DNA of 64,000 nt from Entoloma clypeatum (Eukaryota; Basidiomycota; Agaricomycetes; Agaricales; Entolomataceae). The stretch is taken from the NCBI GenBank assembly GCA_963565915.1, contig OY751487.1, forward strand, positions 3,534,001-3,598,000, in the 5' to 3' direction. Positions 13,571-52,048 of the stretch are shown here, piece after piece (positions within the stretch are counted from its first letter, which is position 1; every line of letters starts with the position of its first letter). Under the pieces are notes generated by a model. The model made no database searches and was not told where the DNA came from. It saw nothing but the letters and a program-made list of their open reading frames with translations. A program made the position numbers and the translations under genes.

Positions 13571-16500
13571 TTGCCTTTGCAAAGAGAGGCATTGACAATT
13601 TGCTCTCTAGTTCCTTGAGGTACTACAGGAAGTGTTTGCCGAAAGTCACCAACAAAGACTACTGTTATTCCTCCAAAAGATGCATTGGGTTTGTCTAACA
13701 GATCTCTAAGACCCCGATCAACAGCATCAATAGCATACTTGTGTTGCATTGGAACTTCATCCCAGATAATAACTTTTGTCTTTTGTAAAACCTCATAGAT
13801 TGGTAGACTGCGTTTGAGTGATGCAACAGATGTTTCATTGATGTGAATGGGTATTTTGAACCTTGAGTGTGCAGTTCGACCACCCTCAAGAAGCAATGCA
13901 GCAATGCCAGAAGATGCAACACACAATGCAACACCACCTTCCTCAGATCTAACTGTGGCAGCAATTGTATTACACAAAAAGGTTTTTCCACCACCACCAC
14001 CACTGTGGATAAAAAGCATTTTTCCCAGGTTATTATTGACAGAATCCAGTACAGCATTATAAACAGATCATTGTTCATTATTAAAAGACTGACAATTTCT
14101 TTCCACCAACTGAATGAGTTCATCATGATCATAGTCTAATTGTTCATGCAGTAGATAATTGTTGGAGAGATGTTGAACCCAGTCATTTCTAACAGGCAAT
14201 GGCATGGGTGGAAAATCCTTCAAAGTTTTGCCAGACTTCATAAGAATATTGTTCAATAGATATAGTCCATAATCATAAATTTCATCTTCTGATAAATCAT
14301 GGTTTGGAAGCATTCTTTCAAGCCTAACTCTCAGATCATCACATATATCAAGCTTGAATTTATTCCATAGTGTATCTGGCTGAACAGGAAAGCAGTTCAA
14401 TAGTATGATAGCAAATAATGATCTGAGTGATGAGCCAGGCTGCATCTGTGTAGCCTCTCTCAAACACTGTTCCCACTCATAATCATCTTCCAATAACCCA
14501 CGCTGCAGACAGACAGCTTTAAAAGAATCAAACGTCTCTCCATTGAAAGTACACAGATATTGGAAAGAAGTAGCTCCAGGAATAACAGTCAATAATAGTC
14601 TTAGATAAAACCGCTCTCCTTGAGCAGGAGATGCAAAGTACATGCGTCCAATAGCAGGTGGACTTCTAGTTCAAAGTGTCCACTTTTTGGTTTTTTTATT
14701 AAAAGAATATTTTTTAGGAAAATCTTGATAAAGAATCTGCCATGCTTCTATATTATCATCATCAGCATTTATTTTGAACCATGCAGTCAATTGAGTTTCA
14801 TTGATATTTCTCCATGATAAAACCTCATCAATAGTATCTTCTTCATTATAATAAACCAACTGTTGGTTTGGCAAATGAACAGGCAAACAATATACAGTTG
14901 GTGATTCAGAGTGCATGGAAAATTCAAAGATGCACGAGCATGCTTCAGATGCAGATATATAACATGCATCAAGAAATTCCTTGATTTCATCTCTTTGAGC
15001 TCCAGATGAGAGTTCAATAGTAGTTTTATCAAAGCCTTTATAGATGTACTTGTGAATATACATGACAGCATGAATAGAAGCACAGATTTCAACATTGATG
15101 TGACATCTGCATTTGGCAGACAGATAAGGGTTGTATGGTACCACATCTCTGATAAGACCAATATTAGCATAGGATCTTGTTTGAAAGTAAAAAGTTATAT
15201 ACTTGTTGGTATAGATATAATCACCCTTTTGAATATCATGTCTTCTGTATTTTGGATAGCCATCATCTCCATATAGTGTAGTTGGCTGATAAGACTTTGG
15301 AAAGTCTTTTCTGCATTTGTTATTCATCATACATCGTTCACTGCAGGGACCATGAACCATAGACTTTGTTACAACATCATATAGTATTGGATGTTCATTC
15401 TTGTCAGGAATCTCAGCACAGACAATATGATCCACATCTTCAGCACTTCTAATTTTGCAACTCTCATCAAGGAAGATTAGCAGATGCATATGAGGAAGAC
15501 CTCTTTTCTGAAATTCAATTGTATGAACCATAGCAGCAACCTTTCCAAAGACACAACCTTCTTTTATTTCTTTCAACAAAGCATTCTTTTTTTCTTCAAA
15601 CACATGCACAACAATATCTGGTCTATCAGAAACAGTTTGTTTTCTTCCATTTGGATTTGTGAGAAGATTTTCCAGAATCTCAGGCCAAGATGGATCAGCA
15701 GCCATAGTCAAGAAGATATCAGGCTTGCTACAAGCCCGGCAGATTGCCATAGAATCTTGAAATAACTGCTGCATATGCTGTTCACTTCCAATAAATGAAG
15801 ATGGAAGAATAATATGCTGGCCATGATTAACAAGATCAAACTCAGCATTTGCATCATCCCGAACCACATCTTGAAGGCCTTGATAAACTTCAGCTTCTGT
15901 TTGTGTCTAGTCCAGTTCAATAAGTTCTGTTGAGTGGAAGCCCAAGCATCAACAACTAATTGCTGAAGTAGCTTTGATCCCCAAAACAATGGAGGTAGAT
16001 CTCTGATGTTAACTTGTCTGTAATGTATACGATGTGCATAGTAGCATCTTTCACTGACAAATTTACATCTGATTTTTCCATCACCAGGATGTGATGAAAT
16101 AGCAGGAAACCAACCATTTTCACCATAGGGAAATAACAAAACATAATGCAGAGAGGCATAAGATGTATGAAGATGACTGATCCGGTGCAGAGCTCCATCT
16201 TTTAGACGAAGAACAATATCTCTGTGATTGGAATATTCTTGAGTTCCATCTCCTGGTATCAAGACAGCTATTTCATCTTGAGCAGTTACATCATTATATC
16301 TTCTTTGATCACCCCAGTCAGATCAGAGTACCATCTGAAAATTCTGCTGTTGTTCAGCAGGTTCTTCACGTATTCTCTGGATAGCTTGTTGATACAGTTG
16401 AATATAAGAATGAACATCAAGCAGCATGGCCTGAAGATCAGCCACAACTTCAGGTCTTAGATTGGGATTTCTTCCCATGCATATTTGTTGTTGAACAGCA

Positions 16501-17388: not shown

Positions 17389-18957
17389 TCAAGGCACGGC
17401 ATCTCGACATGTCAGGAGAAATGAGTCGAATATCGCGGCAGTGATCCGCCGCGGAGCTCCCGGATGACGTCGGTAGAAGTCGCGGACTAGGCACAGAGCG
17501 TGGACATTGTCTTCTGCTTCCCAGGAATTCTCTTCATAGCCATATCCCTTCCATTTGACCAAGAATTGAAGCTTGCCTTGATGCAGTCGGCTGTCCGAGA
17601 GGTTTTCAACATCATACTCCAATTCTTCTCCGACTACCATTGGAGGCGGAGGAGAGCAGACTTGGCATCGGAAAGGGTCATCGGGAACTAGTGAAAGTTT
17701 GACGACATGGAATACTGGGCGAACGCAGGACATGGAAGGGGGAAGGCGAAGTTCGTAGGCATGTGTTCCGACAGGTCGGACCACTGGGAAAGGGCCTACG
17801 TATCGATGTGCAAGTTTTTTTGTGGGTCGGGTGGTTTTGAGGTCTGATGAGTCTAAAAAGACCTTGTCCCCCAGGCGGAATGTCGGAGTGGTGCTCCGAT
17901 GCTGGTTGTAGTATTGCGCCATGTCGTCTTTTGCCTTTGTTAGTGCTGCGCGAGCCTCCTCTAGAGCGGACTTCATCCGCTGGCTGAAATCCGCCACCGC
18001 CTCGATCTCCGTCCGCTTCTCGCGAGGTTCAAATCCCATGCGTGGATGGCGGCCGGTGTCAATGTAGAATGGAGTTTGACGTGTCGATGTGTGAACATGG
18101 TTGTTGTATGCAAATTCTGCCATCGGAAGCCATTCGTCCCAATCGTCTTGACGTTCATTGACGAATAGGCAAAGGTATTGTTCCAATCCTTGGTTGACCC
18201 GCTCCATCTGTCCATCCGACTGCGGATGGTAGGCTGTCGAGGCAGCAACCTTAATGTTAAGCAGCCTGTATAGTTTGCGCGTGAACTTGGCGACAAACTG
18301 TGGTCCTCGGTGGGAGACAACGGCCTCTGGTAGTCCATGGAGTTTCCAGACATTTTGAACATAGGAGTGTGCAGTCCCGAGTGCGGAGATGTCGGAGTGC
18401 ATTGGGATGAAGTGTCCCCGCTTCCCTACTGAGTCCACTACGACCATGATAGCATCGTAGCCGTGGGCTTCTGGTAGTTCAGTAATGAAGTCAACACTGG
18501 TTACTTGCCATTGCTCTGTGGGGACCGGTAGTGGATTGAGCTCTCCAGAGGGTGGAGTGCGTCGGACCTTGGTGCGGAGGCATGGGTCGCATGTCTTGCA
18601 ATATTGACCTATTAAACGAGACATGTGTGGCCACCAGTAATTGCGCGACACCAGTTCCAAGGTTTTCCACCGTCCAGGATGTCTGGCCACCAGAGTGTCA
18701 TGGTGTTGTGTGAGAATCCAATGATGCAGTTGGGGATTGTTAGGAACATAGATACAATTCCTGAAGTAGAGCAAACCTTCCGCTTGCCTCCACTCCGCAC
18801 TACGGACGGATCCCACTCCGACGGTTGGAAGGGATTTGACAACCTCCGCCACACTATCCTCCAGTAACCCCTCTCGGATTCCCTGTTGGACCTGGCGGAG
18901 GACGTTGTGTTCTTCCCCTTGAACAGTTACCCCACGCATTGCTCGCACTGCAAACAA
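17389..18957 (-). CDS. Gypsy-A1 integrase and chromodomain segment of pol
   Basis: A 522-residue open stretch in the pol frame. H2C2 finger (TQHHDTLVARHPGRWKT ... CKTCDPCLRTK), integrase core with SVDFITELPEAHGYD, VVSHRGPQF and TAYHPQSDGQMERVNQGLEQYL, then GPFPVVRPVG and a chromodomain (ELEYDVENLSDSRLHQGKL, then QFLVKWKGYGYEENSWE). The second catalytic Asp block reads SHRG where SDRG is usual, so integrase is probably inactive. It is preceded in frame by TGA where CGA (Arg) is expected (ILL-stop-PELFAVRA). The polypurine tract overlaps its stop codon. Confidence 0.85.
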   Translation of the reverse strand: MFAVRAMRGVTVQGEEHNVLRQVQQGIREGLLEDSVAEVVKSLPTVGVGSVRSAEWRQAEGLLYFRNCIYVPNNPQLHHWILTQHHDTLVARHPGRWKTLELVSRNYWWPHMSRLIGQYCKTCDPCLRTKVRRTPPSGELNPLPVPTEQWQVTSVDFITELPEAHGYDAIMVVVDSVGKRGHFIPMHSDISALGTAHSYVQNVWKLHGLPEAVVSHRGPQFVAKFTRKLYRLLNIKVAASTAYHPQSDGQMERVNQGLEQYLCLFVNERQDDWDEWLPMAEFAYNNHVHTSTRQTPFYIDTGRHPRMGFEPREKRTEIEAVADFSQRMKSALEEARAALTKAKDDMAQYYNQHRSTTPTFRLGDKVFLDSSDLKTTRPTKKLAHRYVGPFPVVRPVGTHAYELRLPPSMSCVRPVFHVVKLSLVPDDPFRCQVCSPPPPMVVGEELEYDVENLSDSRLHQGKLQFLVKWKGYGYEENSWEAEDNVHALCLVRDFYRRHPGAPRRITAAIFDSFLLTCRDAVP

Positions 18958-18960
18958 TTC

Positions 18961-20665
18961 TGGTCAAAGAAGGATGATGTTTTCGTTGTCCCGTGATCCG
19001 TCTCCATGGTCTGCTCGTCGGGACAAAGCATCGGACTTGCCCATTGACTTGCCAGGTCGATGGTGCATTTTGAAATCGAAACGAGCGAGGTATAAGGACC
19101 ATCTAGCCTGTCGTCGATTTAGTTTTTGAGCTGTCATGAAATACTCAAGATTTTTGTGGTCCGTCCAAATCTCCACTGTCTTCTCCGCTCCTTCAAGGAA
19201 GTGCCTCCACTCCTCCAATGCGCGGACCACCGCCAACATCTCCTTGTCGTAGATCTCGTAGTTGCATTCCACCGGACTTAGGCTTTTGGAATAGAATGCG
19301 ACAGGGTGCCACTCACCGTCCTCTGTTGGTTGGGACAGTACTGCTCCGGTTGCAAAGTCCGAGCTATCTGCTTCTATCTGCCACTCCTTTCCATGATCAG
19401 CTAAGACCAGGATCGGAACGGATGTAATCCTCCGCTTCAACTCCCCAAATGCGGACACTTCTCCCTCCCTCCAAGACCAGAGGTGCCCTTTCTTCGTGAG
19501 CTCAAAAAGAGGGCGCGCGATGTCCGAAAACCCTTCAATAAAACGGCGATAGAAGTTAGTGAATCCCAGAAAGAACTGTACTTCTCAGACGTTTGTCGGA
19601 GCAGGCCACTCCGCGACCCCCGCTACCTTCACCGGATCCATCTCTATGTGTCCTTGTTCAATAATAAGGCCTAGGTATTCAATGCGCATTTGTTCAAACT
19701 CGCATTTCTCTGGTTTTAGATAGAGTTTGTGTTTGCAAAGTCGTTCCAGTACGATCCGTGTGACTCTCCGATGCTCCGCAAGGGTCTCCGTGAAGATGAG
19801 TATATCGTCGAGGTAAACACAGACTACACCTTCAGTGATAAGGTCCTGAAAGATCTCATTCATCATAGTCTGGAATGTGGATGGACTATTAGTGAGGCCG
19901 AAGAACATCACCAATGGTTCATAGAGTCCGTGATTGGTCCGAAAAGCGGCCTTCCACTCGTCTCCGGGTTTTATCCGCACATTGTTGTAGCCCCAGCGGA
20001 TGTCGAGCTTGGTGAAGTATTGAGCGCGTTGAAGTTTATTGATCAGTTCGGATATGAGCGGAAGCGGATACTTGTTTTTGATAGTTTTGGAATTGAGTGA
20101 TCGGTAGTCTTGTACAAGACGAAGCAAGCCATCCTTCTTCTTGATGTAGAATACCGGAGATGCCATCGGAGACTTGGAAGGGCGGATCCGACCAGTTGCA
20201 AGGTTTTCCTCCAAAAACGCGTTGAGTTCCTTCTGTTCGTTTGGAGCAAGCGGATATACCTTACACCCCGCCGGAGAGGCATCCGGAACAAGTTCAATGG
20301 CGTGGTCCCAAGTCCGCTCTTCCGGTAAGGTGTCAAAAGAGGTCTTTGAGAATACATCTTCGAAGTCAAACAAGTGGTCTGGTACAGAGTTGCGGAAAGA
20401 TTTAGGTTTTTGGTTACTGAGGAAGGCCTCCAATAGACGTTGTGAGATATTGGATGAAGCGCGGATGAACTCCGCCTCTGCGGGTACTGTTCCGACAAAA
20501 AGGCGGTCTCCCTCCTCAAACTCATCCTCTTCCTCATTGTCTTCCGCTAACTCCTCCGCTTCTTCTTCTTCTGTGACATCCTCCACCCATGGGCCGCGTG
20601 GAGCCTCCTCCTCTAGACCGGACGTCGGAGTGGAACCCACCCGACAGGCTTGGATGCGGACTTGT
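18961..20665 (-). pseudogene. Gypsy-A1 reverse transcriptase and RNase H segment of pol
   Basis: RT: acidic linker (EEEEAEELAEDNEEEDEFEE), then TGRIRPSKSPMASPVFYIKKKDG, LVQDYRSLNS, YFTKLDIRWGYNNVRI, EPLVMFFGLTNSPSTFQ and the catalytic YLDD (VCVYLDDILIF). RNase H: IEADSSDFATGAVLSQ, EMLAVVRALEEWRHFLEG, TDHKNLEYF. A TGA at 19585-19587 interrupts TNV-EVQFFLGFTNFYRRF where Arg CGA is expected. Another TGA (18964-18966) ends the RNase H block. Identical lesions occur in Gypsy-A2, so they predate the split of the copies. Confidence 0.88.
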
Positions 20666-22069
20666 TCAAACTTCCGCTCCTTCCGCTCTTGGGCTGCCTC
20701 TTGGTGGCATGTCTGGCATCATGCAGGACACCGGCTCATCTTCACTTCCCCTGATGTCCAATCTACCTCGGGGTTGTGTTCTTTGAGCCAAGTGAAGCCT
20801 AGCACAATTTCTTGTTTTCCCAAACTTGTGACTGCAAGCTGGGTCCGTTCCGAGTGATCCCGATAGCGGAGCACTACATCCAACACCTCCGTTATTGCTC
20901 CGGCCTCGTTTGGAGTTCCGTCGATGTTGTATACCGGAATTGCGCGTTGTAGTTTTCGAGTAGAGAGTCAATGTTTCTCGACCAGAGTGCGTTCAATAAA
21001 CGACCCTGTTGCACCGCTGTTGAGTAAGGCCTTTTGTGATAGTGTGTCTTTGGTGTCGGTAGTTTCAAGAACTATGTCTAGTTCAATAGAATTGTCGGAG
21101 TGAGCGGAGGCGAGGACATATTGTTTTGGAAGTCGACGCTCCCATTTAGAGAGGCGAAGGCGGATGGGATTTGCGGAGTTGGGTGCGACTATAGGATCGT
21201 TTGCAGGCTTAGAGATGGAGGGTATAGGATCATATTGTTCCATAAATAAGGCAGCATAACGATTTTTAGCAGACAACGAGGGCACACTGTTCACTCGCTG
21301 TGGGGAGGAAAATCCTCCTGTCCTCCCTCCGACTCCGCAGACTCCGTGGGCGGAACGGAGTTGCCTTCCGCTGCGTCCTTGACCACGAGTTGTTCCATAA
21401 CAAACTCGTCCTGCTCCTCCATTGTCATGAAGTGAACATCGAAGCCAAGGGGGCATTCACAACTAAAGTGACCCGTTTTGTTATATCTGAAGCATGCATT
21501 GGCATTCTTGCCTTTGATGCATGAAGTATCAATGTCCATTGCATTGGGGTCCCTTGTCAGCGGAGCGGATGCGGATGTGAGTGGAGCTGTGCGCGGAGTG
21601 AATGGAATGTAGGGGTGAGGGAATACTGAGGTGCCAGGTACTCTTGGTCCGACAACATTGTGGAAGGCGGAGGTATGGGTCGGAGCAGTGGCTTTGAAGG
21701 CTTTGTTGGCAATCCTATTGTTGTCATTGACTCGTGCTGCAGAGTACCACTCATCGGGGTTGTCATCCGCAGGTCGTCCGTGGGTCAGGGTGGCAATCTC
21801 GTTCTGAATGTCGGAACGGAGACCATGGCGGAATTTGAGTACGATGTTGGTATCCTCCTGATAGCCCGCTTTGTCAATGTAGTCTTTGAACTCGTCAATA
21901 TAGGTCTCGACATCCCGTTGACCTTGATAATAGGATTCTCCTTTGAGAATCAGTCTCGCATCCTGTTCCTCATTCTTCAGAGTGAACTCCACTGTAAAGA
22001 CTGCACGGAAGTCCACCCAAGTCCGATAAGGCGGAGCACCGGTCCTCCGCTCCTGTCGGATAATGCGAT
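20666..22069 (-). pseudogene. Gypsy-A1 gag C-terminal part and protease
   Basis: The gag frame (22069 to 21291) has a capsid-like region (YRTWVDFRAVFTVEFTLKNE, YIDEFKDYIDKAGY, ALTHGRP-type end) and a nucleocapsid knuckle reading CFRYNKTGHFSCEC, where canonical CCHC would need Cys for Tyr and Arg for the penultimate Cys. The overlapping pol frame (from about 21456) holds the protease, whose active site reads LLNSGATGSFIE: Asp replaced by Asn. In-frame TGA codons follow at VEKH-stop and CPA-stop, both at expected Arg positions. The gag N-terminus lies at 35343-35862, on the other side of Copia-2a. Confidence 0.82.
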
Positions 22070-22074
22070 CCGCA

Positions 22075-22383
22075 TGTTGAAACTTTTCCATCATGTAGAT
22101 TAGATTAGATTAGATTACATCACGTGACCTTTACACATCTTCGATTACATACTTATTTGGTTGGTACAAACAGTAGTACGGTATATAAGACCAGGAAACT
22201 GTCAATATCAACAAGTTGTCTCTTGACTCTTAACCAGCTCCATCGCTCTTACCAGCCTCAACCGCTCTCACCAGCCTCACCCTTCCCAACCAAGTAAGTG
22301 ACTAGAACGGTAGAGTAGATTACTTCCACTGTAGCTGTGTTGCTCAGTACATCTGTGGCTAGCGCCCAGGTGGAACTTCAACA
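22075..22383 (+). repeat. Copia-2a 5' LTR
   Basis: TGTTGAAACTTTTCC ... GGAACTTCAACA. Contains gattagattagattagatta repeats near 22100 and TATA-like tatataag near 22181. Confidence 0.93.
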
Positions 22384-22398
22384 GGTTATGGGCCCCAG
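22384..22398 (+). promoter_or_regulatory. Copia-2a primer binding site (initiator tRNA-Met anticodon arm)
   Basis: GGTTATGGGCCCCAG directly after the LTR. Its complement matches, apart from one extra C, the anticodon stem-loop of eukaryotic initiator tRNA-Met (CTGGGCCCATAACC). This implies priming by a tRNA half cut in the anticodon loop, as known for Drosophila copia. The same site is present in Copia-2b. Confidence 0.75.
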
Positions 22399-22744
22399 AT
22401 AGCAGAGGGACTTGGGAACGCTGGCAACAGCAAGTACCTGCCCACTCTACCCTGGTTGGCAAAAGAACCGATCGAAAGATCTAGGTTCTGAGTCATACTT
22501 CTTCACACATGAACCTGGGAACGTCATTACAACAAGTACCTGTCATGAAGCGTCCCTAAGGGGATTGACTTAGTACACATCATGTGGAAACGTTGATTGT
22601 ACCTCATACACTTCTGACAAAAAGGGTCCCTCCCACAACCGCTATTCCTGAAGGGAACATGTTACGAGGAATCACTTATTTGCTCTCTCTAAAAATCAAG
22701 AACATCACTGATTGGGAGAACTCCTTTTAGATTCATTAAAAAAA

Positions 22745-24745
22745 ATGTCTACCTCTCGCTCCGCCCTCGACTCCATCGTCGTCTTCAACGGCATCGACTA
22801 CCTCAGCTGGGGTGAAAAAATGAAGTCCTACCTCCTCCATCAAGGAGTCTGGCGCCTCGTATCCAGCGATATTGAGCGCCCCACTATCGAGGACTTCACC
22901 GTCACGGTCTCCACCCCTGCCTCCGCCACCTCAACATCTGCAACCCAGCCTCCGGTCGTCACCGTCACCGTCGACCAGCCCGGCTTCCACAAAGAAAGGA
23001 AGAACTGGATTAGGGACGACGACATGGCCCTTGGTTCCATCCGCCTCAAGGTCTCCGAAGCCATCAGGAGACACATCAAAGACGCCAAGACCTCGAAGGA
23101 AGCTTGGACATCGCTCAAGGACGCGTATTTGAAGGTCTCCCCCGCCACCATATTCGGCGACTTCAAGGCCGCTGCCTCTTTTAAGCTGTCAGGTCGCGAC
23201 CCCGTACCGGAAATCGAGCGCCTCGGGTCACTCTTCGCTCACCTCAGCGATGCAAAGTTCGTTGTGCCTGATCTGATGCAGGCTATGATCCTGGCAAGCG
23301 CCATTCCTGACGCTTGGTCGTCTCTCTCCACCGCCCTCTTTCAGGTCTACGACGCCGACGACTTCACATGGCAGGCAGTCACTGACAGCATCGTCTCAGA
23401 GTACAGGCGAAAGTATGCGATTGGGTCTACTCGGGCATCCAACGAGCAGGCCCGGAAAATCTCCGGGACAAAGCGAAAGGGGCAAGACCCCAAATGGGAA
23501 AAGCAAACAGCGCCGAGTACCTCGTGGAACAATACTGACGAGCAGCCTAACTCGACCGACCCGAGTACCACTTCTGAAAAGAAGAAGGGAAAGGGACGCT
23601 GGCGCAACCAGAAGAAGCGCGCCAACAATGCGGACAACGAGTCCGACCAAGCCGAGGAGATGGTCGAGTTCATCACACCGGCCATTGAGCAGCCCCCTCG
23701 TTATCCTGCTCCCTGTCCCCTTCCTCCTCGTCAACGTGCCCCTTGCCCTCTCCCTCCTCATCATGCACCTACCTTCACCACTATAACAGGCCGCGGGAAA
23801 ACTACGAGTACCGCACAGCCTGAATCGGAGAAAATGCAGTCACTCCTGCAACGCATGAACCTGCCTCCTTCCCAGTACACCGGGCTTCCCTCTGGAAAGC
23901 CGTCTGTGTGGAAAAAGAACGAGAGGGTGCGAAGACTTGCCCGAGAAATCGGTGCTCAACCTTCTGGGTCAAACCTCCATATCTTAGATACCATCATTCC
24001 TGACATTGACGAAAGGCCGGCTAAACAGCGTCGTGTAGCCCCATCAATAGAAGAATCGCTGAAAATGATGGACATCGACCAGGAACGGATGGGGCTGGAT
24101 GTATTCGAGGACGAGATAGAACTTGACGGTTCGTCGAAACCCTTTCTTGAATCTTATCAATTGCGGAATGCTAATAATACCTCTCAACAGACGTATAATA
24201 TATTAGCCAGTACCAGTACAGAGTGCATAGATCACATTAGCAGTGACCTACATAAAAAATATATTAAACATTTCGCCTCTTGTACACATTGTAAGGAAAA
24301 AGAACGCGCGCAATGGATATTAGATTCCGGCGCCTCTTTACACTTCACCTATGAGTTTAAGGACTTCGCATATTATAGACCTCTCACGGTCAAGTGATTC
24401 GTCCAAACTGCAGCTAAAGGGAAGAAACTGGAAATACTCGGAGTTGGGGCCGTTCCAGTATGGCATACCCTGAATGGGGAAATTAAAACCCATCTTCTCA
24501 GACTGGTATTCTACATTCCGGACATGGACACATGCCTATTGTCCCTAGGCGTCTTCCTTAACCATGGTTACAAAGTAGACGGGACTTGTGGAGAAATCAA
24601 TATCTCCAAAGGGCTGAACAAAATCCAGTTTTTGCCTCACATCCTTGGTCATACCATTTACTGGTTAGACACTGAAATACGCTATGATCAGATCCATGCG
24701 ATCTCAAGCGAAATTACTGTCAAAACATGGCACAAGCGTCTTGGT
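22745..24745 (+). pseudogene. Copia-2a gag-pol, 5' part (gag, protease, GAG-pre-integrase)
   Basis: Start chosen at MSTSRSALD (22745), the start shared with Copia-2b. Gag: UBN2/gag-type N-terminus (FNGIDYLSWGEKMKSYLLHQGVW), then LMQAMILASAIPDAWSSLS. It has a proline repeat (PAPCPLPP/RAPCPLPP, about residues 332-347) absent from 2b. No classical CCHC knuckle is seen. The protease reads WILDSGASLHFT near 24315. TGA at 24395-24397 replaces CGA of 2b. The frame then stays open to HKRLG at 24745, where Gypsy-B1 is inserted. It resumes at 32171 in the same frame. Confidence 0.9.
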
Positions 24746-25467
24746 TGTTATATCCGTCTCCGAATCTCCGATCCACTCCGATCGTCCTCCGACTTTCCGG
24801 ACTTTCCGGACATCCGTTACCTCCGCATCTCCGCACGCTGCCATCGTGCATTTCATATTCATAACTCCATGCCTTTATGCATTTCATATTCATATTCCCG
24901 TTTACTTATGCATCGCCTTTTCCGCATGGTCCATTGACCGACATCTCCGATGTTCGTTACAGTCGCTGGCAACTTACGCCACAACTCCGGACCTACTCCG
25001 ACCATCTCTGTAAAGTAATCTCATTTAGATATTTAAGCTTGTACCATACCTGTAGTTCCTCAGTTCGAATATCAACAAAGTTCACTCCTCTACTCCCCGT
25101 TCATGCCAGAGATCCTCGCTGTGGTACAATACGCTGACGACATCCTCATCTACTGCTCTTCCTCCATCGTTACCCTTCGACGAGCTCAGTACTGTGTCCG
25201 AGTCACAACTCCGACGTCGTCCGACCATTTCCACGTCAACGTGTCTCTCACCGAGATCTTTCTGAGGACCTCTGCATCTCCGACCTCTCCTCCGACCTCC
25301 TGAAATTGGGACACCTTATCCAACAAACGGCGGCGCAACACATACGTTGAAGCCACGTCCCTCCCCTTCGTCGTTCCTCCGCATTCCCGGAGTTCCGCTC
25401 CGGCCTCAGTCCTTCGTCCGACCTCCAACGGACTCCGACGAAGCTCCGACTTTTCACCTATTTAACA
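24746..25467 (+). repeat. Gypsy-B1 5' LTR
   Basis: TGTTATATCC ... CTATTTAACA. TATA-like tatttaa at 25030. Predicted R start AGTTCGAATAT at 25062. Dense in CTCCGAC/TCCGGAC words. It also holds a 66-codon ORF (25103-25303) with a YADD box. Confidence 0.93.
25103..25303 (+). other. Small ORF with RT-like YADD box inside the Gypsy-B LTR
   Basis: Encodes ILAVVQYADDILIYCSSS. VVQYADD followed by hydrophobics is the catalytic signature of reverse transcriptases, best known in this form from LINE-type enzymes. It is present in both LTRs (31801-32001) and, as YADNILIF, in the solo LTR at 54989-55189. Far too short to be active; probably a captured RT fragment or chance. Confidence 0.45.
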
Positions 25468-25469
25468 GT

Positions 25470-25480
25470 ATATTCGAACT
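25470..25480 (+). promoter_or_regulatory. Gypsy-B1 self-priming primer binding site
   Basis: ATATTCGAACT, 2 nt after the LTR, is the exact reverse complement of AGTTCGAATAT at 25062-25072 in the LTR, 32 nt after tatttaa. This is the arrangement of Tf1/sushi elements, whose own mRNA 5' end folds back to prime. Confidence 0.78.
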
Positions 25481-25507
25481 CAAACCGTTTTTGGATTCCT
25501 GCTAGTC

Positions 25508-26644
25508 ATGGCACTCTGAAACACCAAGACAGCAAAAGCCGCAGAAGCTGGCACTTCTAGGCAACAGGTTCTACAAAATGTCGAACAATGTTTAACAGAA
25601 CTATCCCCCGTAACTCCCACTACTCCGACACCTCCGGGTTTTCAGCCCATCACACCTCCGCATAATATTCCGATCCCCACTTCCCCCATAGAATCCGCAC
25701 CCCCGTCTCCTCAGAATATTTTCGGCCCACAAGCCCTTGCGGATGCTTTCCTCTTAATGACCAATGAACTCAAACGCAGCAAAGGTCACAAGCATCATAA
25801 AAAGGCTAAGGATCCGGACACCTTCAACAGTTCCGATCCCCGGAAACTGAACCAGTTCATCCTCCAATGCACATTGTTCTTCCGCGACAACTCCGAGTAT
25901 GACGATGACTCTGCCAAAATCACTCTCGCCATCTCTTTCCTCCGAGGCACAGCTCTCGATTATTTCGAGCATTTCATCATCGAACCGGACCCGGATAACC
26001 CCCCGGACTGGTACGAAGATTGGTCCGCATTCCTCCGCACACTCCGCACGGAATTCGGGGTCATTGACCCCGTTGCGGATGCTGCCGACTCTCTGGACAA
26101 TCTCAAAATGCGCGAAAATCAACATATTCTCAAGTATAATATCGAGTTCACACGCCTTGCTGCCAAAACGCACTGGGACAGCTCCGCCCTGCATCACCGG
26201 TACTACTCCGGGTTGGCGGAGCGGATTAAAGATGTCCTTGGGACTCAAGCAAAGCCAAGCACGTTACCAGCACTTAGGGAGCTAGCACAGACTATTGATG
26301 CTCGCCACTGGGAACGTCATCGCGAGAAGTCCCGCTCCGACAAATCTGAAGCTAAAACCCCCTCCGCAAACTCCGATAAAAACTCCAAAGCCAAACCACA
26401 GACACAGAACCAGGGCAAACAGTTGAAGCCTTCCTCCGCTCCCAAGTCCGACATCTCCGACAAACTCGGAAAAGACGGAAAGCTAACTCCGGAGGAACGC
26501 AAACGCCGTTTTGACAACAACCTCTGTATGTTTTGTGGCAAAGCTGGACACGTCGCGAAAGATTGCCTGAAGTCTTCGTTCTCCGCCTCTAAGGCTAAGG
26601 CGCGCGCTGCCCAAGCCAAGACCACGGACGAAACAAAAAATTAG
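25508..26644 (+). pseudogene. Gypsy-B1 gag, nonsense at codon 4
   Basis: Begins ATG GCA CTC TGA: TGA at 25517-25519 stands where CGA would keep the frame open. The frame then runs through a proline-rich N-terminus, a capsid region (PRKLNQFILQCTLFF, ALDYFEHFI, WSAFLRTLRTEFG, ILKYNIEFTRLA, HHRYYSGLAERIKD) and a basic stretch to one CCHC knuckle CMFCGKAGHVAKDC near 26527. It ends at TAG 26642-26644, directly after the slippery heptamer. Translation from the internal ATG at 25757 would still give a 295-residue product with the capsid core and knuckle. Confidence 0.88.
26635..26641 (+). promoter_or_regulatory. -1 ribosomal frameshift site, A AAA AAT
   Basis: In the gag frame the codons are ACA AAA AAT TAG, giving the heptamer A AAA AAT directly before the stop. 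A -1 slip continues as TTA GCG GGC in the pol frame, which is open from here onward. It fits the X XXY YYZ rule. No downstream pseudoknot was evaluated. Confidence 0.72.
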
Positions 26645-29600
26645 CGGGCAGTCCACAGGACTCTGTACGGCCTGAGGACTGCGTTGAACCCATCCGTACT
26701 ACCGCTCTACTCAACACTTCCACTCTTTCCGATCCCAATTCCCTCCGTGTCCGACTTACATCTCCGCTTATCTTCAATTCTTCTCCGATAGCCGCCCTTG
26801 TGGACTCCGGCTCTACTCATTGTTTTATTGACTCCCGTTATGCTTCATCCTATAAACTCCCTTTCACCTCCATACCTCCGATCGAACTTAAATTATTTGA
26901 CGGAACGTCCAACTCCGTCATTACTCAGGCGGTTGATCTCCCTGTATACTTTTCCTCCGGTGAATATATGGCCATTACAACCTACGTGACTCCGCTCGAT
27001 TCCTCCTGTTCTATGGTTCTTGGATACAACTGGCTCACCCGCTACAATCCTATGATTGACTGGGTATTGGGCAGTATTACTTTCCGTCCACAGCTCTTGA
27101 AGGAGTCTCCGACCTTGACGTCTTCTGCCAGGTCAGCTCCGCTACCTCCGCAGACCTCTCCCGATACTCCGACCTCCGACTCCGGCACATCCGCTGCTAC
27201 TCCGGACGTTGTCCCGAATATTGCATTGATAAATGCAGCCGCATTTGTGCGCGCCTGCAAACTTCCGGGTGCCCAATCCTTCCGAATTCACCTCTCCGAC
27301 CACACGATCTCCGCCCAATCCGTTTCTATGTCCGAGGAACCTCCAGACCTCTCCCATATCCCAGAGGAATATCACGATTTTGCCGATGTTTTTAGCAAGA
27401 CAAAAGCAGACACCCTCGCTCCGCATCGTCCGTATGACCTCCGCATCGAGTTAGAAGACGGATCGAATCCCCCTATTGGCCCTATGTACTCCATTTCACA
27501 ATCCGAACTATCTGCCCTGCGAAACTTCATAGACGAACATTTGGCCATTGGTTTCATTCGCCCCTCTCGCTCTCCGCACGGTGCTCCGGTCCTCTTTGTC
27601 CGAAAGAAGGACGGTTCCCTCTGCCTGTGCGTCGACTATCGGGGCCTGAACAAAGTTACCAAGAAGGATCGATACCCTCTTCCGCTCATCTCCGACCTCC
27701 TTTCCACTGCCGGAAAAGCGCGTGTTTATACCACTCTCGATCTCCGGCATGCATATCATCTTGTCCGCATTGCCGACGGAGATGAATGGAAAACCGCTTT
27801 CCGCACTCGTTATGGATCGTTTGAATGGCTTGTTATGCCTTTTGGACTATCCAACGCCCCTGCTGCTTTTCAGCGATTTGTGAATGACATCTTCAGTGAC
27901 CTCCTCGATGTTACAGTGGTGGTCTACCTTGACGACATTCTCATTTACTCCGACGACCCCGCCAAGCACCCCGACGATGTCAAGGAAGTTCTCCGACGTC
28001 TCCGCAAGAACGGACTTTACGTCCGCTCCGACAAGTGCGAATTTTCTGTCGACACAGTCGAATATCTTGGTTTCATCCTTTCTCCCTCCGGTCTCCGCAT
28101 GTCCGAAACCAAGGTGAAGACCATTCAAGAGTGGCCCGAACCTCGGAAAGTGAAGGACGTACAGTCTTTCCTAGGATTCGCAAATTTCTATCGACGTTTC
28201 ATCCACGGTTATTCGGACATCGTTGTTCCGCTCACCCGACTCACCCGGAAGGGTACTCCGTTCGGTTTCTCCGACTCCGCACGGAGTGCGTTCAACGAGT
28301 TGAAGCTCGCGTTTACCAAAGCACCGGTCCTCACTCATTGGATTCCTGATCGACCTATTATCATCGAGACGGACGCCTCCGACTACGCACTTGGTGCTAT
28401 TTTGTCCATCCGGACCTCCGACGAGGAGATACACCCAGTAGTGTTCCACTCCCGCACCTTCACCGCCCCGGAACTCAACTACGACACGCACGACAAGGAG
28501 TTACTTGCTATCCATGAAGCATTCAAGGTATGGCGACATTACCTTGAAGGCTCCGCTGCTCCGATCGACGTTGTCACGGACCACAAGAACCTGGAGTATT
28601 TCGCCACTACAAAGGTTCTCACCCGCCGACAGGCCTGGTGGTCCGAGTTCCTCTCTCAGTTCAATCTCTTGATTCGCTTCCGCCCCGGACGTCTCGGTAC
28701 CAAGCCGGACTCTTTGACTAGACGATGGGACGTCTATCCCAAAGAGGGGAATAGCGACTATGCATTGGTAAACCCAAGCAACTTCTGACCAGTCTTTTCC
28801 CAAGAACAGCTGTCCACATCTCTCCGAGCTACGGAGTTGTTCACCCCTGTTCTCCGCGCCACAGTCATAATGGACATTGAACAGTTGCACTCCGACATTC
28901 TCCGTTCACTCCCATCCGACCCAATCTATGCCGACCATCTCAAGGAGCCCAAACCGCACTGGTCCGTAGACTCCGACGGTTTCCTCCGTCATAGTGGTCG
29001 CATTTATGTCCCCGACTCCGATAACCTCCGGCTCCGCACCCTCCGCAACAAGCACGACCATATTCTCTCCGGACACCCCGGACAGAACAAGACAGTTAGT
29101 CTCATTCAACGAGATTATACTTGGCCTGGTGTTCGAGACTTTGTCAAAAAGTACTGCAAATCCTGCACCACTTGCATGCGCTCTAAACCCCAACGCCACA
29201 AGCCCTATGGTATGCTGAAGCAACTCCCAGTTCCGAACCTTCCGTGGAACTCCATATCCATGGACTTCATTGAGACACTTCCGACCTCCGGCGGTTTTGA
29301 CGCAATCCTTGTTATTGTTGACCGAATGACAAAACAAAGCATTTTTGTTCCGACTACGATCCACTGCACCTCCGAAGATCTAGCCACCTTGTTCATCCTG
29401 CATGTGTTCTCCAAGCACGGAGTACCGGAGCATGTCACCTCCGACCGAGGCCCGGAGTTTGTCTCCCGCTTTTTCCGCTCCCTCGGAAAAGGCCTCAACA
29501 TGACTCTGCACTTCACCTCTGGCTACCATCCTGAAGGCGACGGTCAAACCAAACGTACCAACCAGACCTTGGAACAGTACCTCCGCATTTTCTGTAACTA

Positions 29601-30339
29601 TCAACAGGACAACTGGTCCGAACTACTTCCGCTTGCGGAGTTCGCGTACAACAATGCTCCGAGTGCTACGACCGGGATCTCGCCCTTCTTTGCCAATAAA
29701 GGTTATCATCCGAACCTCTCCGTCCATCCGGAGCGCGACCTCGCATCCGCCCGTGCCCGACAATTCGTCGTAGACCTGGACGAGCTTCACCAAGAACTCA
29801 AATCTACAATCCTAGAAGCTCAACAACGTTATCAAGGCCCCGCCGATCTCCGGCGTGCTCCGCCCCCTCCGCTCGAAGTAGGACAGCAAGCTTTTGTGAA
29901 GGCTAAGTTTTTCCGCACTACACGACCCTCCAAAAAGCTGTCTGAAAAGTACCTTGGCCCCTTTGACATCCTTGCCAGGAATGGTACACACTCTTACACC
30001 CTCCGACTTCCGGACACCATATGCGGTGTTCACCCCGTTTTCCACATCTCCATGCTGGAGCCATCTGTTCCGAACAACATTCCGAACCGGACAGTAACTC
30101 CGCCTCCTCCGGTCGACGTTGAAGGAGAAGTGGAATACGAAATCACCGAAATCCTTGACACCAAACTGGATCGTCGGCGTTCTTGCAAACTGCTCTACCT
30201 AGTCCGTTGGCTAGGCTATGAAGGAACCGATGAGGAACAGTCCTGGCTACCCGCCACGGAACTCGAACACGCGACGGACTTAGTCGCAGACTTCCACTCC
30301 GCGTATCCGGAGAAACCGGGCCCCTTATCACACCTATAG
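26641..30339 (+). pseudogene. Gypsy-B1 pol (PR-RT-RH-IN-chromodomain), one nonsense codon
   Basis: Protease AALVDSGSTHCFID at about 26797. RT: FIRPSRSPHGAPVLFVRKKDG, LCVDYRGLN, YTTLDLRHAYHLVRI, WLVMPFGLSNAPAAFQ, catalytic VYLDDILIYS near 27928. RNase H: IIIETDASDYALGAIL, DKELLAIHEAFKVWRHYL, TDHKNLEYF. TGA at 28786-28788 (NPSNF-stop-PVFSQEQL) replaces an expected CGA. Integrase: H2C2 finger (KHDHILSGHPGQNKT, CTTCMRSK), core MDFIETLP, TSDRGPEFVSRF, YHPEGDGQTKRTNQTLEQYL. Chromodomain EVEYEITEILDTKLDRRRSC, then LYLVRWLGY, at 30127-30220. All catalytic residues appear intact. Confidence 0.92.
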
Positions 30340-30408
30340 AAGCGCGCAAGACTCTCATATTGCAAAAAAATAATAAAAATAATAAAAAGAAACTAGAGGG
30401 GGGAGGGG

Positions 30409-31362
30409 CTACTGGGTTTTGGCCTTTTTGGCCGGCGGACCCTCATTCTCTGACCCTTCCTCCGACTCCTCCGTTTTTTCCCCTGTTTCTTCCTCCGCTT
30501 TCCTTGCCTGCTTTTTCTCCTCCTCCATTTTCTCCGCTTGCAGTTCCGCAAGCTCCCCCTCGTCCAACCTCTCGTCCTTCTCCTCGTCCTCTTCCTCGTC
30601 CTCTTCCGCACTTTTTGCCTCCCCTCCGTCATCCTCCGACTCCGGAGCCGCCGCCTCCAGCAAGAAGTTCCGGTAGGCGAGGTGGTTGTTTAAAATTTGC
30701 AGCTGCCGGAGCAGCGCCCAACCGACCCTCGCCGACCGCTCCTCTCTCTCCTCCAGAGCCTCCCGGAGCTCCCGGAGCTCCTCCGCGACCCCTGCGCCGC
30801 AGCAGTTCTTTGCCCCGCTCGGGCCCGCGACCTCCGCGACGGCCTCCTCCGTCTTCCCCCGTTTTCGCTTCGCCCTCGTCTCGCCGGTTTTCAGGCAAAC
30901 CCGTTTGCCGTCTTTACACCGCTGGCATGCGGTGCCTTTCCCCTGCCTAAGGAGACTGTCAGTAAGAAAAAGAAGATGAAAAAAAGCGGGTACTCACAAT
31001 GGCCACTTGCACTCCACCTTCGCCTGCGCACAGGCCTGACACGCCTCCCCCTGGACCTCCGATTCCTCCGCTCCGCTCTCCGCCCTCTGTTTCCCCGCCT
31101 TCTTCGCCCTCTTCCTCTCTGCCTCCGCCTCCGCCTTCGCCTCCGCCTCTGCCTTCTTCTTCGCCTCTGCCTCCCTCGCCCTCCTCTCGGCCTCCGCCTT
31201 CTTCCTTGCCTCCGCCTCCTCCTTTTCCTTGCGTATCTGCGCCAGACGGCGCAGGAGCTCCTCTTCGGAGTCGTCTAGGTTGGCGCTGGATCGGGGGGGC
31301 TGTGTGCTCGAGCCTTGGGGCATGTTGGTGGTAACTGGAAGAAACCCTTGAAAGCCGCTCAT
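30409..31362 (-). CDS. Antisense gene in Gypsy-B1: Zn2Cys6-like cysteine cluster protein with coiled coil (unnamed)
   Basis: Lies tail to tail with integrase, on the opposite strand, between pol and 3' LTR. Start ATG 31362-31360. Exon 1 31362-30998; intron 30997-30947 (51 nt, GTGAGTA ... TACTGAC ... CCTTAG); exon 2 30946-30409, stop TAG. An alternative acceptor 9 nt earlier (CTGACAG) also keeps frame. The product is 300 residues. Residues about 25-95 are a charged coiled coil (repeats of AEAERRAREAEAKKKAEAEA type). Spliced, six cysteines fall at 108, 111, 118, 129, 132 and 139: C-X2-C-X6-C-X10-C-X2-C-X6-C, the spacing of fungal Zn(II)2Cys6 binuclear clusters. A second helix (ELRELREALEEREERS) and a long Glu/Asp-rich tail end in PPAKKAKTQ, NLS-like. 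The role is inferred, not known: DNA-binding or regulatory protein. No stop in either exon. Confidence 0.72.
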
Positions 31363-31432
31363 CTCCGTTAAATAACCGAGACCACATGACCTTGTTTATT
31401 TTCTCGCGGTCTTCCATGGGTGTCAGACCTAA

Positions 31433-31443
31433 GAGGGGAATAC
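31433..31443 (+). other. Gypsy-B1 polypurine tract
   Basis: aagaggggaatac runs up to the 3' LTR (31444) and would prime plus-strand synthesis. It lies 70 nt upstream of the antisense ATG, so the antisense promoter must overlap the tract or the LTR. Confidence 0.7.
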
Positions 31444-32165
31444 TGTTATATCCGTCTCCGAATCTCCGATCCACTCCGATCGTCCTCCGACTTTCCGGAC
31501 TTTCCGGACATCCGTTACCTCCGCATCTCCGCACGTTGCCATCGTGCATTTCATATTCATAACTCCATGCCTTTATGCATTTCATATTCATATTCCCGTT
31601 TACTTATGCATCGCCTTTTCCGCATGGTCCGTTGACCGACATCTCCGATGTTCGTTACAGTCGCTGGCAACTTACGCCACAACTCCGGACCTACTCCGAC
31701 CATCTCCGTAAAGTAATCTCATTTAGATATTTAAGCTTGTACCATACCTGTAGTTCCTCAGTTCGAATATCAACAAAGTTCACTCCTCTACTCCCCGTTC
31801 ATGCCAGAGATCCTCGCTGTGGTACAATACGCTGACGACATCCTCATCTACTGCTCTTCCTCCATCGTTACCCTTCGACGAGCTCAGTACTGTGTCCGAG
31901 TCACAACTCCGACGTCGTCCGACCATTTCCACGTCAACGTGTCTCTCACCGAGATCTTTCTGAGGACCTCTGCATCTCCGACCTCTCCTCCGACCTCCTG
32001 AAATTGGGACACCTTATCCAACAAACGGCGGCGCAACACATACGTTGAAGCCACGTCCCTCCCCTTTGTCGTTCCTCCGCATTCCCGGAGTTCCGCTCCG
32101 GCCTCAGTCCTTCGTCCGACCTCCGACGGACTCCGACGAAGCTCCGACTTTTCACCTATTTAACA
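31444..32165 (+). repeat. Gypsy-B1 3' LTR
   Basis: Same 722 bp as the 5' LTR apart from about five transitions (for example gcacgttgcc versus gcacgctgcc; tggtccgttg versus tggtccattg). Confidence 0.94.
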
Positions 32166-34960
32166 TTGGTCACCCAAATGATCAAGCACTTCGAAAGATT
32201 TCCACCAGTACCAAAGGGGTACCTGAGACACTAGTATGTGAGAAATCACAGGAAAGTTGCACAGGTTGCCTCAAAGGGAAAATGCCAAATCAGTCATATC
32301 CCAATTCGATGACAAGGGCAACAAAAACCTTTGATCTGATCCATTCCGATCTCAAACAGATATCCACGGCATCATACCACAAATATAAATATTTCCTCAC
32401 GTTTTTGGACGACTTTTCATCCCACGTCTGGGTCGTCTTGCTTAGGAAGAAGTCAGATGCCATCACGGCACTACGACAATTCCTTGCGATGATCCAGAAT
32501 CAATTCACCACCACCCCAAAGAAATGGCGAGTTGATGGAGGTGGAGAGTTCAACGAATACAAGGATGTACTTGCCGATCATGGAATTCTGGTCGACGTCA
32601 CGCTCCCGTATCAGCACCAGCAGAACGGTAGAGCAGAACGGATAAATCGAACCCTGTGGGAGAAATCTCAGGCCTTGCGCTTCGACGCGTGCTTACCCCC
32701 TATGTGGTGGGAATTCTGTTTGGAACATGCAGCTTTTCTGTACAACAGAACGCCCATGCAGCGTCTTGAATGGAATACCCCTTACTTCAGGGTGACCAAT
32801 GAGATCCCCGATATGTCAAGCATCAGAGTCTTCGGATGTCAGGCATATGTGTATATCCCAAAAGAAAAACGTAGAAATTCCCTGGAGTCTAGATCTCGAT
32901 TGATGATTTATCTCGGATCAAAGCCAGGGGTCAAAGGATACCGTTTTATGGATCCTGAGACTAATACAATTTTCATGGGTGGGAAAGCTATCTTTGATGA
33001 GAGCAAGTACCCTAGATGCCACATCGACCCTTTGCCAGAAAACCATCCAGAAATGGAAAACCCAGAACCGGCTGATGAGTTTGAGAACCTCATCCCCGGA
33101 AACGATGACAATGACAGTCATTACAAAAAACCTCACGACCCTGTTCCCACTGGACAGGATCACCCTGAATCAGACAATGATTTGCCGCATAGTGAGCCCG
33201 ACGATGAACCGCGAGTACCCACTCCGGAACCCGAACAAGTACCAGATCGACCGATCAGGGAACGACGAGTTTGCAGAATGCCTGATAGCATCTATGGGGA
33301 AGACACCCCTGCTTCTGATCTTGAAAAGATGGATCGAAGACGCAGACTAGGCGGTCAAACGGCATGGATGAACGATCTCCTAATGGAGGCGATCTCTATC
33401 CAAGTAGGCATCATTGAAATGTCACACAAAGACATATACTCTCTTCCAAATAAAGAAGATTGGTATGCGGCAGAATGAAAAGAGCTAGACATGCTCAAAA
33501 GCCGCGGGGTGATCACAGAGTTAGTACCTCTACCTACAGGGAGGAAAGCTCTAAGGAACAAATGGGTTTACAATGAAAAATCCGATGGGCGTTTGAAAGC
33601 ACGCCTTGTCGCAAAAGGTTTCTCACAGGTAGAAGGGATCAACTTCGATCAGATCTTCTCACCAGTAGTGAGGTATGAGACTGTCCGGTTGATTCTGGCA
33701 TTGACAGCCCTTGAATGGTGGTTCATGACACTCTTGGACATCTCATCAGCCTTCCTCTATGGAACACTCCGTGAGGTAATCTACATGCGACAACCTGAGG
33801 GCTACATAGTAAAAGGGAAAGAACACCTTGTGTACTGACTATACAAAGCCCTATACGGACTCAAGCAGGCCACATTAGCCTGGTGGAGGGAACTCGATTC
33901 CTCCATGAAAAAGCTCGGCTTTGTCCGGCTTCACTCCGATGCGGGAGTTTTCATTCACACAAGTACCAAAGGGGAAACTGTAATCGCCGTCATTTATGTC
34001 AATGACTCTGCTTTTCTCGGCACGAACCGGGAATACACGCTAGAAAAGAAGAAGGCCTTCATGACAACATGGGAATGTAGGGACCTAGAACACCTAGTCC
34101 CTGATGGGGAACCAAAAGAATTTCTCTCAATCCAAATAAGGCAATGTGGGAAGAGGATCTTCATTGATCAAGTACCCTACCTTGAGAAAATTCTCGCACG
34201 CATGGGGATGAGCGAATCTAATGCCACCCATACCCCACTCCCGACGGGCTACAAACCCATGAAGTCTGAAGATGAACCCAATGCGGAACTCAGATCCAAG
34301 TACCAATCCGTCATCGGATCATTATTGTACTTAATGATCGGGACAAGACCCGACATTTGTTTCGCTGTGATCAAAATGTCCCAATTCTCCGCAAACCCTA
34401 CCAAACGCCATTTAGAAGTGGCTAGGGATATTTGCAGGTATTTGAGGGTGACAAAAGATTACACGATCATGTACGATGGCGATTCTGGGAAAGGGATCTA
34501 CGCATTTACAGACTCCGATTGGGCATCAGATGAAAACACCAGGAAGTCAACCACTGGTTACTTCATATCGCTGGCATCTGGAGCAGTAACATGGGTTTCA
34601 TCAGCATAGAAAACCATTGCCCTCTCTTCCACGGAAGCAGAATACATGGCGCTATCAGATTGCAGTCGTGCAGTGACATGGCTTAGAAGCATGCTTGCCG
34701 AACTTGGGATGCAGATCGGATCAGTCCCGATCTATGGAGATAACAATGGCTCCGTCTTTATCGCATCCAACCCTGTAACTGAAAAGCGGTCCAAGCACAT
34801 TGACGTGTGATTCCACTTCGTCAGAGAAAAAGTATCCGAAGGCATCATTACGGTCGAATTCATCGAAGGAGTGAATAACCCTGCAGACCTTTTAACTAAG
34901 AATCTGGGGAAAGTCCTCTTTAGCAAGTTTATCCCATACTTCGGATTACTTAAAAACTAG
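32166..34960 (+). pseudogene. Copia-2a pol, 3' part (integrase, RT, RNase H), four nonsense codons
   Basis: Resumes after the TTGGT duplication with HPNDQALRKI, in frame with 24745. Integrase: CTGCLKGK, HSDLKQIS, FLDDFSSH, VDGGGEFNEY, HQQNGRAERINRTL. RT: WVYNEKSDGRLKARLVAKGF; the YVDD box reads YVNDSAFLG (Asp to Asn), so RT is dead. RNase H: TDSDWASDENTRKS, SSTEAEYMALS, YGDNNGSVF, HIDV. Nonsense codons: TGA 33476-33478 and TGA 33836-33838 (CGT and CGA in 2b), TAG 34607-34609 (CAA in 2b) and TGA 34808-34810, the last also present in 2b. The frame after it reaches TAG 34958-34960 (YFGLLKN). Confidence 0.92.
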
Positions 34961-35028
34961 ACATAAAAGAGTACCTACATGGGAAAAAGTAAAAATGTAT
35001 TTAGAAGTATGTACTAAATATGGGGGGG

Positions 35029-46628: not shown

Positions 46629-47070
46629 TGTAAGGGCAACCACTTTCACTTTTTACTTTACCTTTCCTTTCTTCCTTTCCTTTCTATTCCACCATCTCTG
46701 ACGTCCTCCGATCGTATCCGCTGTCTCCGCTGTCTCCGACATCTTATCTGCCTCTCCGCATCCGATGACTCCGCCCCCATCCACTACTCCGCACGTTGGA
46801 TCGCAGGTACTATCATTCATCTTGTTTCCATTCATCCTTCATCGCTACTCCTGATCATTGCTCATCATTCATGCGTCTCATTTTATCTCTTATTTCATAT
46901 CTCATTTTACTATTTATCTTGCTAGCTTGCAGGGGAATCCTTAGAACTTTCTCTTCGGATCTCCCTTGCAAGGTGTGTGTTGTCTTACTTATCAGACTGC
47001 TCAATCTAAACTTCGGATCTCCCTTGCAAGTATCTGAGTTTGAGTCTTGGATCGTAAGGTCGCCCTTACA
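46629..47070 (+). repeat. Gypsy-A2 5' LTR
   Basis: TGTAAGGGCAACC ... GTCGCCCTTACA. TATA-like tatttat at 46911. R-start complement AGAACTTTCT at 46943-46952. More similar to the Gypsy-A1 LTRs than to its own 3' LTR. Confidence 0.92.
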
Positions 47071-47072
47071 GT

Positions 47073-52037: not shown

Positions 52038-52048
52038 AGGGGGGGTGA

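Follow-up and report, generated by a model that had tools for sequence, protein, structure and literature searches.

An intron-bearing antisense gene for a Zn2Cys6-like protein in a Ty3/Gypsy chromodomain retrotransposon of the mushroom Entoloma clypeatum

The genome of the mushroom Entoloma clypeatum (60 Mb in 20 contigs) contains a Ty3/Gypsy chromodomain retrotransposon, Gypsy-B1, which, judged from its sequence, hosts an antisense gene as an accessory gene. The element lies in a stretch of 64,000 nucleotides (nt) of contig OY751487.1 (positions 3,534,001 to 3,598,000), which was analysed as a whole and is called the window. The gene is convergent to pol and located between the integrase frame, which ends at about 30336-30339, and the 3' long terminal repeat (LTR); about 70 nt separate the stops of the antisense gene and the integrase. 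There is hardly any doubt that it is a real spliced gene, and very probably its product possesses a Zn2Cys6-type domain.

On the minus strand the intron shows the signals GTGAGT, TACTGAC and TTAG (Table 1), from which splicing of the antisense transcript is predicted. The spliced product comprises 287 amino acids (aa) with the arrangement C-X2-C-X6-C-X10-C-X2-C-X6-C, whose two halves are united only by the joining of the exons. An earlier reading of the same DNA (the original prediction) had described this convergent two-exon gene, with an intron between the cysteine halves and a six-cysteine pattern appearing only after splicing, and all of the described parts are present in the sequence.

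Conservation was followed across copies of the same family (window family). A DNA search gave 153 candidate places, 40 of which were scored, all with at least 89% identity, and the matches of a protein search were merged by hand into at least about 118 loci. The alignment of 25 copies consists of the window copy, four from the DNA search and 20 from a later search; these are mostly the best-scoring ones and therefore biased toward intact genes. The ATG at 31323, the splice sites GTGAGT and CCTTAG and the six cysteines are kept in all 25 (copy L034 has D for V before the last cysteine), and the intron measures 48-63 nt. The original prediction had placed the start at 31362; this ATG is in frame in the window copy, but it is GTG in 8 of the 25 and out of frame by a 1-nt difference in three (L019, L032 and L036), so that the conserved ATG is preferred. 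Exon indels are multiples of three in all eight distinct cases and intron indels in three of ten, and internal stops occur in two aligned copies (L030 and L032). Three older copies (L039-L041) retain the intron. The frames and cysteines, on whose conservation the original prediction had staked itself, are kept with the exception of two of these older copies, L039 with lost zinc-cluster spacing and L040 with a stop in exon 2. The protein search had also pointed to intronless families, by matches of 53-60% identity across both exons without stops. These were rejected after L039 and L041 had been read: both are ordinary intron-bearing copies (DNA identity about 82-85%), and the alignment had put their exon 1 into a wrong frame.

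The gene also keeps its place, which the original prediction had proposed as a check. A convergent gene follows 36-226 bp downstream in 72 of 83 scored integrases (a subset of 3259 candidates), namely 63 of 72 in the window family and 9 of 11 in a second, sister family with 80% integrase identity. In the remaining 11 the gene may be missing from the list or displaced; in L021 an insertion splits the integrase.

Furthermore, the ratio of nonsynonymous to synonymous substitution rates (dN/dS) proposed as a check indicates purifying selection, with NG86 values of 0.14-0.35 for the spliced frame in six comparisons among the window copy, L036, L019 and L032. In a six-frame scan of each exon, dN/dS of the predicted frame is 0.18-0.27 in exon 1 (frame 0) and 0.10-0.34 in exon 2 (frame 1); the constrained frame thus switches at the intron, matching the frame predicted by splicing. 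The other frames reach 0.65-7.8, save the opposite-strand frame sharing third positions (exon 1: 0.31-0.45; exon 2: 0.08-0.38), which has a stop in each compared sequence and is lower than the predicted one in a single comparison out of six. The singletons among 23 closely related copies comprise 41 nonsynonymous, 39 synonymous and one stop change, with 49.2, 29.1 and 2.8 expected under the same mutation spectrum; variants common to several of these copies number 5 nonsynonymous and 8 synonymous. G>A or C>T changes on the gene strand make up 62 of the 81 singletons, a pattern which methylated-CpG decay or a process like repeat-induced point mutation would give.

The sister family possesses its own version of the gene. 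Pol is 76% identical between the families (940 of 1234 positions) and the antisense proteins are 28% identical (73 of 263). The sister gene, encoding 291-305 aa at the same place, carries C2C6C8C2C6C and an intron of 48-53 nt in the same phase between the third and fourth cysteine in five of five copies read, two of them picked since both exons were listed without stops and all read in search of spliced frames bearing the cysteine pattern, which favours finding them. Its protein ends in GPSNKKQRTK, where the window protein has GPPAKKAKTQ, and dN/dS among the five copies is 0.16-0.57. The statement of the original prediction that a sense retrotranscript cannot remove an antisense intron agrees with its presence in all 25 aligned copies, the three older ones and these five.

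Within the window family, synonymous divergence (dS) between the window copy and L019 or L032 is 0.31-0.37 for the gene and 0.08-0.10 for pol, and the difference amounts to 5-6% in the leader before the ATG, 10-14% in the exons and 16-17% in the 3' part. L036 looks mosaic, with an exon 1 start resembling L019 and L032 and an exon 2 resembling the window copy; L042 and L043 of the sister family hardly differ over the first 120 codons but strongly over codons 180-300. Divergence in parts of the gene thus far exceeds that of the neighbouring pol and LTR, which suggests that the gene or gene parts were exchanged between subfamilies, possibly by template switching of co-packaged sense RNAs.

Two explanations would deny the element a functional gene of its own. 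The open frames might be a by-product of low-complexity (GAG/GCG-rich) sequence with a cysteine pattern arisen by chance, and indeed both strands of the region hold further, overlapping long open frames. However, the constraint is specific to one frame and switches at the intron, the exon indels keep the frame, the sister family has an independent version and relatives exist in other fungi; this explanation was rejected and retains practically no probability. A host transcription-factor gene could also have been captured and passively carried, as Zn2Cys6 genes are a typical fungal family and an intron is expected if the gene entered antisense as DNA. Against this stand the same location in two families with 76% identical pol, the purifying selection and the lack of a full regulator middle domain by Pfam, which make passive carriage highly improbable; an ancient capture that later became useful is conceivable.

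Zn2Cys6 clusters follow the consensus C-X2-C-X6-C-X5-12-C-X2-C-X6-9-C, into which the C2C6C10C2C6C of the window protein fits (PF00172). As the protein is without a match to this Pfam family, it is termed Zn2Cys6-like and not a member; a regulator middle domain was not found by Pfam in the window or sister proteins either. The same cysteine pattern and layout exist in 13 relatives (P0001-P0013), including annotated proteins of Paxillus rubicundulus and Pilatotrama ljubarskyi, and 11 of the 13 list Pfam Zn_clus at E values up to 10 (best 4.1e-4). Aligned with these relatives by hhalign, three window-family proteins reach 98.6% (E 7.5e-16) and two sister-family proteins 98.5% (E 2.7e-15). The AlphaFold model of relative P0001 consists of a helix (29-100), two short helices at the cysteines and a further helix (171-235), and the 15 Foldseek matches in the PDB, all weak, are DNA-binding domains of Leu3, Put3, Pho7, Gal4, Ppr1, Hap1 and AlcR as well as one chain of the CBF3 complex. 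Searched by sequence, no solved structure matched the cysteine piece at E up to 10. With the profile of the relatives, GAL4, PUT3 and LEU3 were among the weak matches (E 0.03-2.3), as were unrelated coiled coils. A protein search with residues 80-200 of a sister protein found no match at E 0.1, and no relative of the antisense protein appeared in the viral contigs searched.

In relatives P0001-P0007, which come from metagenome contigs, the reading is uninterrupted across both cysteine halves, and the intron may be absent there or may have been spliced out by the source of these sequences. The contigs of P0003 and P0006 are both 55749 long and P0006 is without the last cysteine, which would fit a gene that exists in many copies and decays.

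A possible target of the protein is suggested by the element itself. The word TCCG occurs 170 times on the sense strand of 24746-31443, with 46.7 expected from dinucleotides, and the longer words CTCCGA and CTCCGC are found 42 times each in the element (4.9 and 4.7 expected). CTCCG exceeds synonymous-codon shuffling in the reverse transcriptase (RT) frame (36 vs 12.6, standard deviation (sd) 2.8), the integrase (24 vs 9.7, sd 2.4) and gag (16 vs 6.7, sd 2.0), and codon usage is therefore not the cause; TCCG is present in all codon phases. Sister pol shows the same under codon shuffling, with 88 TCCG against 39.0 (sd 4.3; codon phases 33/29/26), 52 CTCCG against 15.8 and 63 TCCGA against 19.3, while the reverse complement CGGA is not enriched (15 vs 17.8). 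The LTR of the window element has 25 TCCG (6.8 expected) and a partial sister LTR 20 (3.7 expected). Over 20 loci the density per kb is 26.5 inside and 3.2 outside the elements for TCCG, and 7.8 and 3.3 for CGGA. Of 99 TCCG sites in pol, 53 (54%) are kept from one family to the other, compared with 13-48% for eight other words, of which CTCCG, containing the motif, has 48% and the other seven 13-37%; 46 sites are specific to one family and 35 to the other. Saturation is seen in both Gypsy-B families (window copy; L042, L043 and L047), partly kept and partly gained anew. The commonest spacing is 9 nt (CCG-N6-CCG), found 30 times among 302 sites with 9.2 expected (sd 2.9), and the site of the regulator Hap1 is CGG-N6-CGG in direct-repeat orientation. 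On the gene strand TCCG is CGGA and contains CGG, and Zn2Cys6 proteins typically dimerise through a coiled coil and recognise CGG triplets in pairs (PMC5559640).

On this basis the following working is proposed. The antisense transcript would start in or near the 3' LTR or in a short leader and then be spliced, giving a protein of about 290 aa with a long N-terminal coiled coil, a divergent Zn2Cys6 domain, a second coiled coil, an acidic tail and a basic end resembling a nuclear localisation signal (NLS). In the nucleus this protein would work as a dimer and recognise CGG triplets in the DNA of the element itself, one strand of which is saturated with TCCG over the whole length. It could thereby adjust how its own family is transcribed or packed into chromatin, similar to the autoregulation by HBZ or the sequence-specific anti-silencing by VANC. 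As an overall explanation, an accessory gene product that is a nuclear dimer tuning its own family via TCCG is rather probable; for action on the element's own DNA, taken by itself, the chances appear even. Besides transcription and splicing, we infer the protein's place in the nucleus, its binding to DNA, its connection with the motif and which way it acts. A narrower version assumes VANC-like self-recognition evolved anew in a fungal LTR retrotransposon: a fast-diverging antisense Zn2Cys6 dimer would read its own sense-strand TCCG direct repeats, spread over LTRs and over coding sequence in all codon phases, and protect or activate the family against host silencing, with an intron safe from loss because the gene is antisense. 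In this full form it is unlikely.

Several observations weigh against the explanation by a TCCG-reading zinc-cluster protein. No Pfam Zn_clus match was obtained for the window and sister proteins. Spacings of 12, 21 and 30 nt are also raised, in the LTRs 8 nt is commoner, and the excess at 9 nt lies mainly in coding parts and is no proof of dimer binding. Gypsy-A elements (17391-22109 and 46875-52398) are rich in TCCG and CGGA on both strands, and an antisense zinc-cluster gene is not visible in these two window copies. In addition, Copia without such a gene has 14 AGTACC on the sense strand (2.0 expected by codon shuffling) and none in reverse; motifs specific to a family may be more widespread among the elements of this genome. 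AGTACC-rich Copia elements lie at 56388-60983 (minus strand) and 22374-24745 plus 32165-35028 (plus strand).

Part of this evidence also supports a reading of TCCG as an RNA-level signal of the sense genomic RNA, serving Gag recognition or packaging, export or stability and unrelated to the antisense protein. The bias toward the sense strand fits it, both in sister pol (TCCG 88 vs 39.0, CGGA 15 vs 17.8) and inside the elements (26.5 vs 7.8 per kb), as does the other sense-strand motif AGTACC of Copia. On the other hand, TCCG holds a CGG triplet, as is usual for Zn2Cys6 sites, both orientations are frequent in Gypsy-A, and direct-repeat orientation is known for Zn2Cys6 sites too, that of Hap1 being an example. 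We regard an RNA signal as a possibility to be taken seriously, though not as the likelier case. The product might otherwise serve the retrotransposition cycle, in import of the pre-integration complex, in integration targeting linked to the chromodomain or in binding of genomic RNA. Such a role is discussed for plant antisense open reading frames (ORFs) by Vicient and Casacuberta 2020 (PMC7264820), and it would suit the basic NLS-like end, the coiled coils and the chromodomain integrase encoded by the element. However, a domain of the Zn2Cys6 kind, here in a divergent form, typically belongs to regulators that bind DNA sequence-specifically (PMC5559640), and nothing in the analysis ties the protein to particles or integrase, so that this role is quite unlikely. 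Still less probable is that the antisense transcript works as RNA, forming double strands with the sense RNA and giving rise to small RNAs that limit the element, with the protein secondary. Convergent genes whose stops lie about 70 nt apart would permit this, and it is discussed for plant and retroviral antisense transcripts (PMC7264820 and PMC10186651), but it needs neither coding constraint nor intact splicing, and both are seen across the families.

The element is inserted inside a Copia element (parts 22374-24745 and 32165-35028, plus strand), and its features are compiled in Table 1. In the window copy an in-frame stop parts the RNase H frame from the integrase frame; in other copies found by the integrase search, a single frame extending around the integrase stays open for up to 1246 aa. 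Open frames at 13387-16322 (minus strand) resemble pieces of a Helitron helicase and may be such pieces.

Table 1 Features of the Gypsy-B1 element and its antisense gene (positions in the window)
Feature	Position	Strand	Remarks
Target-site duplication, left	24741..24745		TTGGT
Ty3/Gypsy chromodomain element (Gypsy-B1)	24746-32165	+	
5' LTR	24746..25467	+	722 nt; TG...CA; 25 sense-strand TCCG; 5 differences to 3' LTR
gag frame	25520..26641	+	CCHC zinc knuckle; weak Pfam matches
Protease, reverse transcriptase and RNase H frame	26599..28785	+	
Integrase	28789..30336	+	H2C2, rve, SH3; C-terminal chromodomain at ~30136-30297
Antisense gene, exon 2 including stop	30409..30946	-	second cysteine half, coiled coil, acidic stretch, NLS-like end GPPAKKAKTQ
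Antisense gene, intron	30947..30997	-	51 nt; phase 2; between third and fourth cysteine
Antisense gene, exon 1 from conserved ATG	30998..31323	-	coiled coil and first cysteine half
Upstream in-frame ATG	31360..31362	-	unconserved
Putative polypurine tract	31431..31443	+	before 3' LTR; within presumed antisense-gene leader
3' LTR	31444..32165	+ (for LTR)	722 nt; possible antisense promoter
Target-site duplication, right	32166..32170		TTGGT

Since they pass through RNA, retrotransposon genes should lack introns. In these two families selection has kept an intron within a coding sequence, which shows how a retroelement can carry a spliced gene by encoding it in antisense. The original prediction knew of no named system of this type. 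This holds for the zinc cluster and the intron, as a literature search, whose coverage lacked most subscription journals, turned up no retrotransposon reported to have an antisense gene that encodes a Zn2Cys6 protein or contains an intron; it does not hold for antisense accessory genes as such, which are published for plant Gypsy elements, Boty (brtn) and human T-cell leukaemia virus (HTLV; HBZ). Antisense accessory genes are thus already known, and the zinc-cluster, intron-bearing version is apparently new.

In plant Gypsy elements, antisense accessory genes between pol and 3' LTR (aORF-3R) are described in two papers, with Grande gene23, RIRE2, Retand with TRP28 and PvRetro13 as examples (PMC7264820; PMC11963269). 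The mushroom gene shares with them the antisense frame between pol and 3' LTR and its presence in most copies (72 of 83 scored integrases). However, the plant genes encode other protein families, whereas the mushroom product has a divergent Zn2Cys6 domain completed by splicing; the word intron is absent from the main text of both papers. An extra antisense gene, brtn, belongs to Boty-like elements of Botrytis cinerea (PMC8365987, PMC4227169 and PMC7264820), and brtn and the mushroom gene are both additional antisense genes in a fungal Gypsy element with chromodomain. The original brtn paper is reportedly Zhao et al. 2011. Fungal regulators such as Gal4, Leu3, Put3, Hap1, Pho7 and AlcR have the six-cysteine spacing in common with the window protein, and the predicted fold of relative P0001 has, like them, short helices near the cysteines and then a coiled coil; unlike them, the window protein is without a Pfam match, no regulator middle domain was found in it, and it is retrotransposon-encoded.

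With a putative DNA-binding domain and a predicted motif saturating the element, the long-standing question of what antisense accessory genes do gains a concrete candidate, and the element seems to bring its own gene regulator along. The closest functional models are found in other hosts. HBZ of HTLV and APH-2/3/4 are antisense genes with a spliced transcript (PMC10186651). Like the mushroom gene they lie at the 3' end of an LTR element, and they give a nuclear regulator that acts on the element's own transcription, for which the mushroom counterpart is predicted. HBZ and APH have a bZIP or no known domain and belong to animal retroviruses with proven expression, whereas the mushroom gene encodes a zinc cluster and is known from sequence; Pfam gave no bZIP match for the window or sister proteins. 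The anti-silencing VANC proteins of Arabidopsis VANDAL transposons, whose motif is accumulated in the element (PMC5735166 and PMC10398659), are likewise transposon-encoded, diverging and DNA-binding, the last being putative in the mushroom protein. The short motif accumulated in the element is found here as TCCG, but other motifs occur in elements without such a gene. VANDAL is a DNA transposon with motifs in noncoding tandem repeats, whereas the mushroom motif runs along coding and noncoding parts, and binding and demethylation are shown for VANC. If the mushroom protein does read its motif, it would constitute a self-recognition system comparable to VANC and usable as a sequence-specific chromatin tool.
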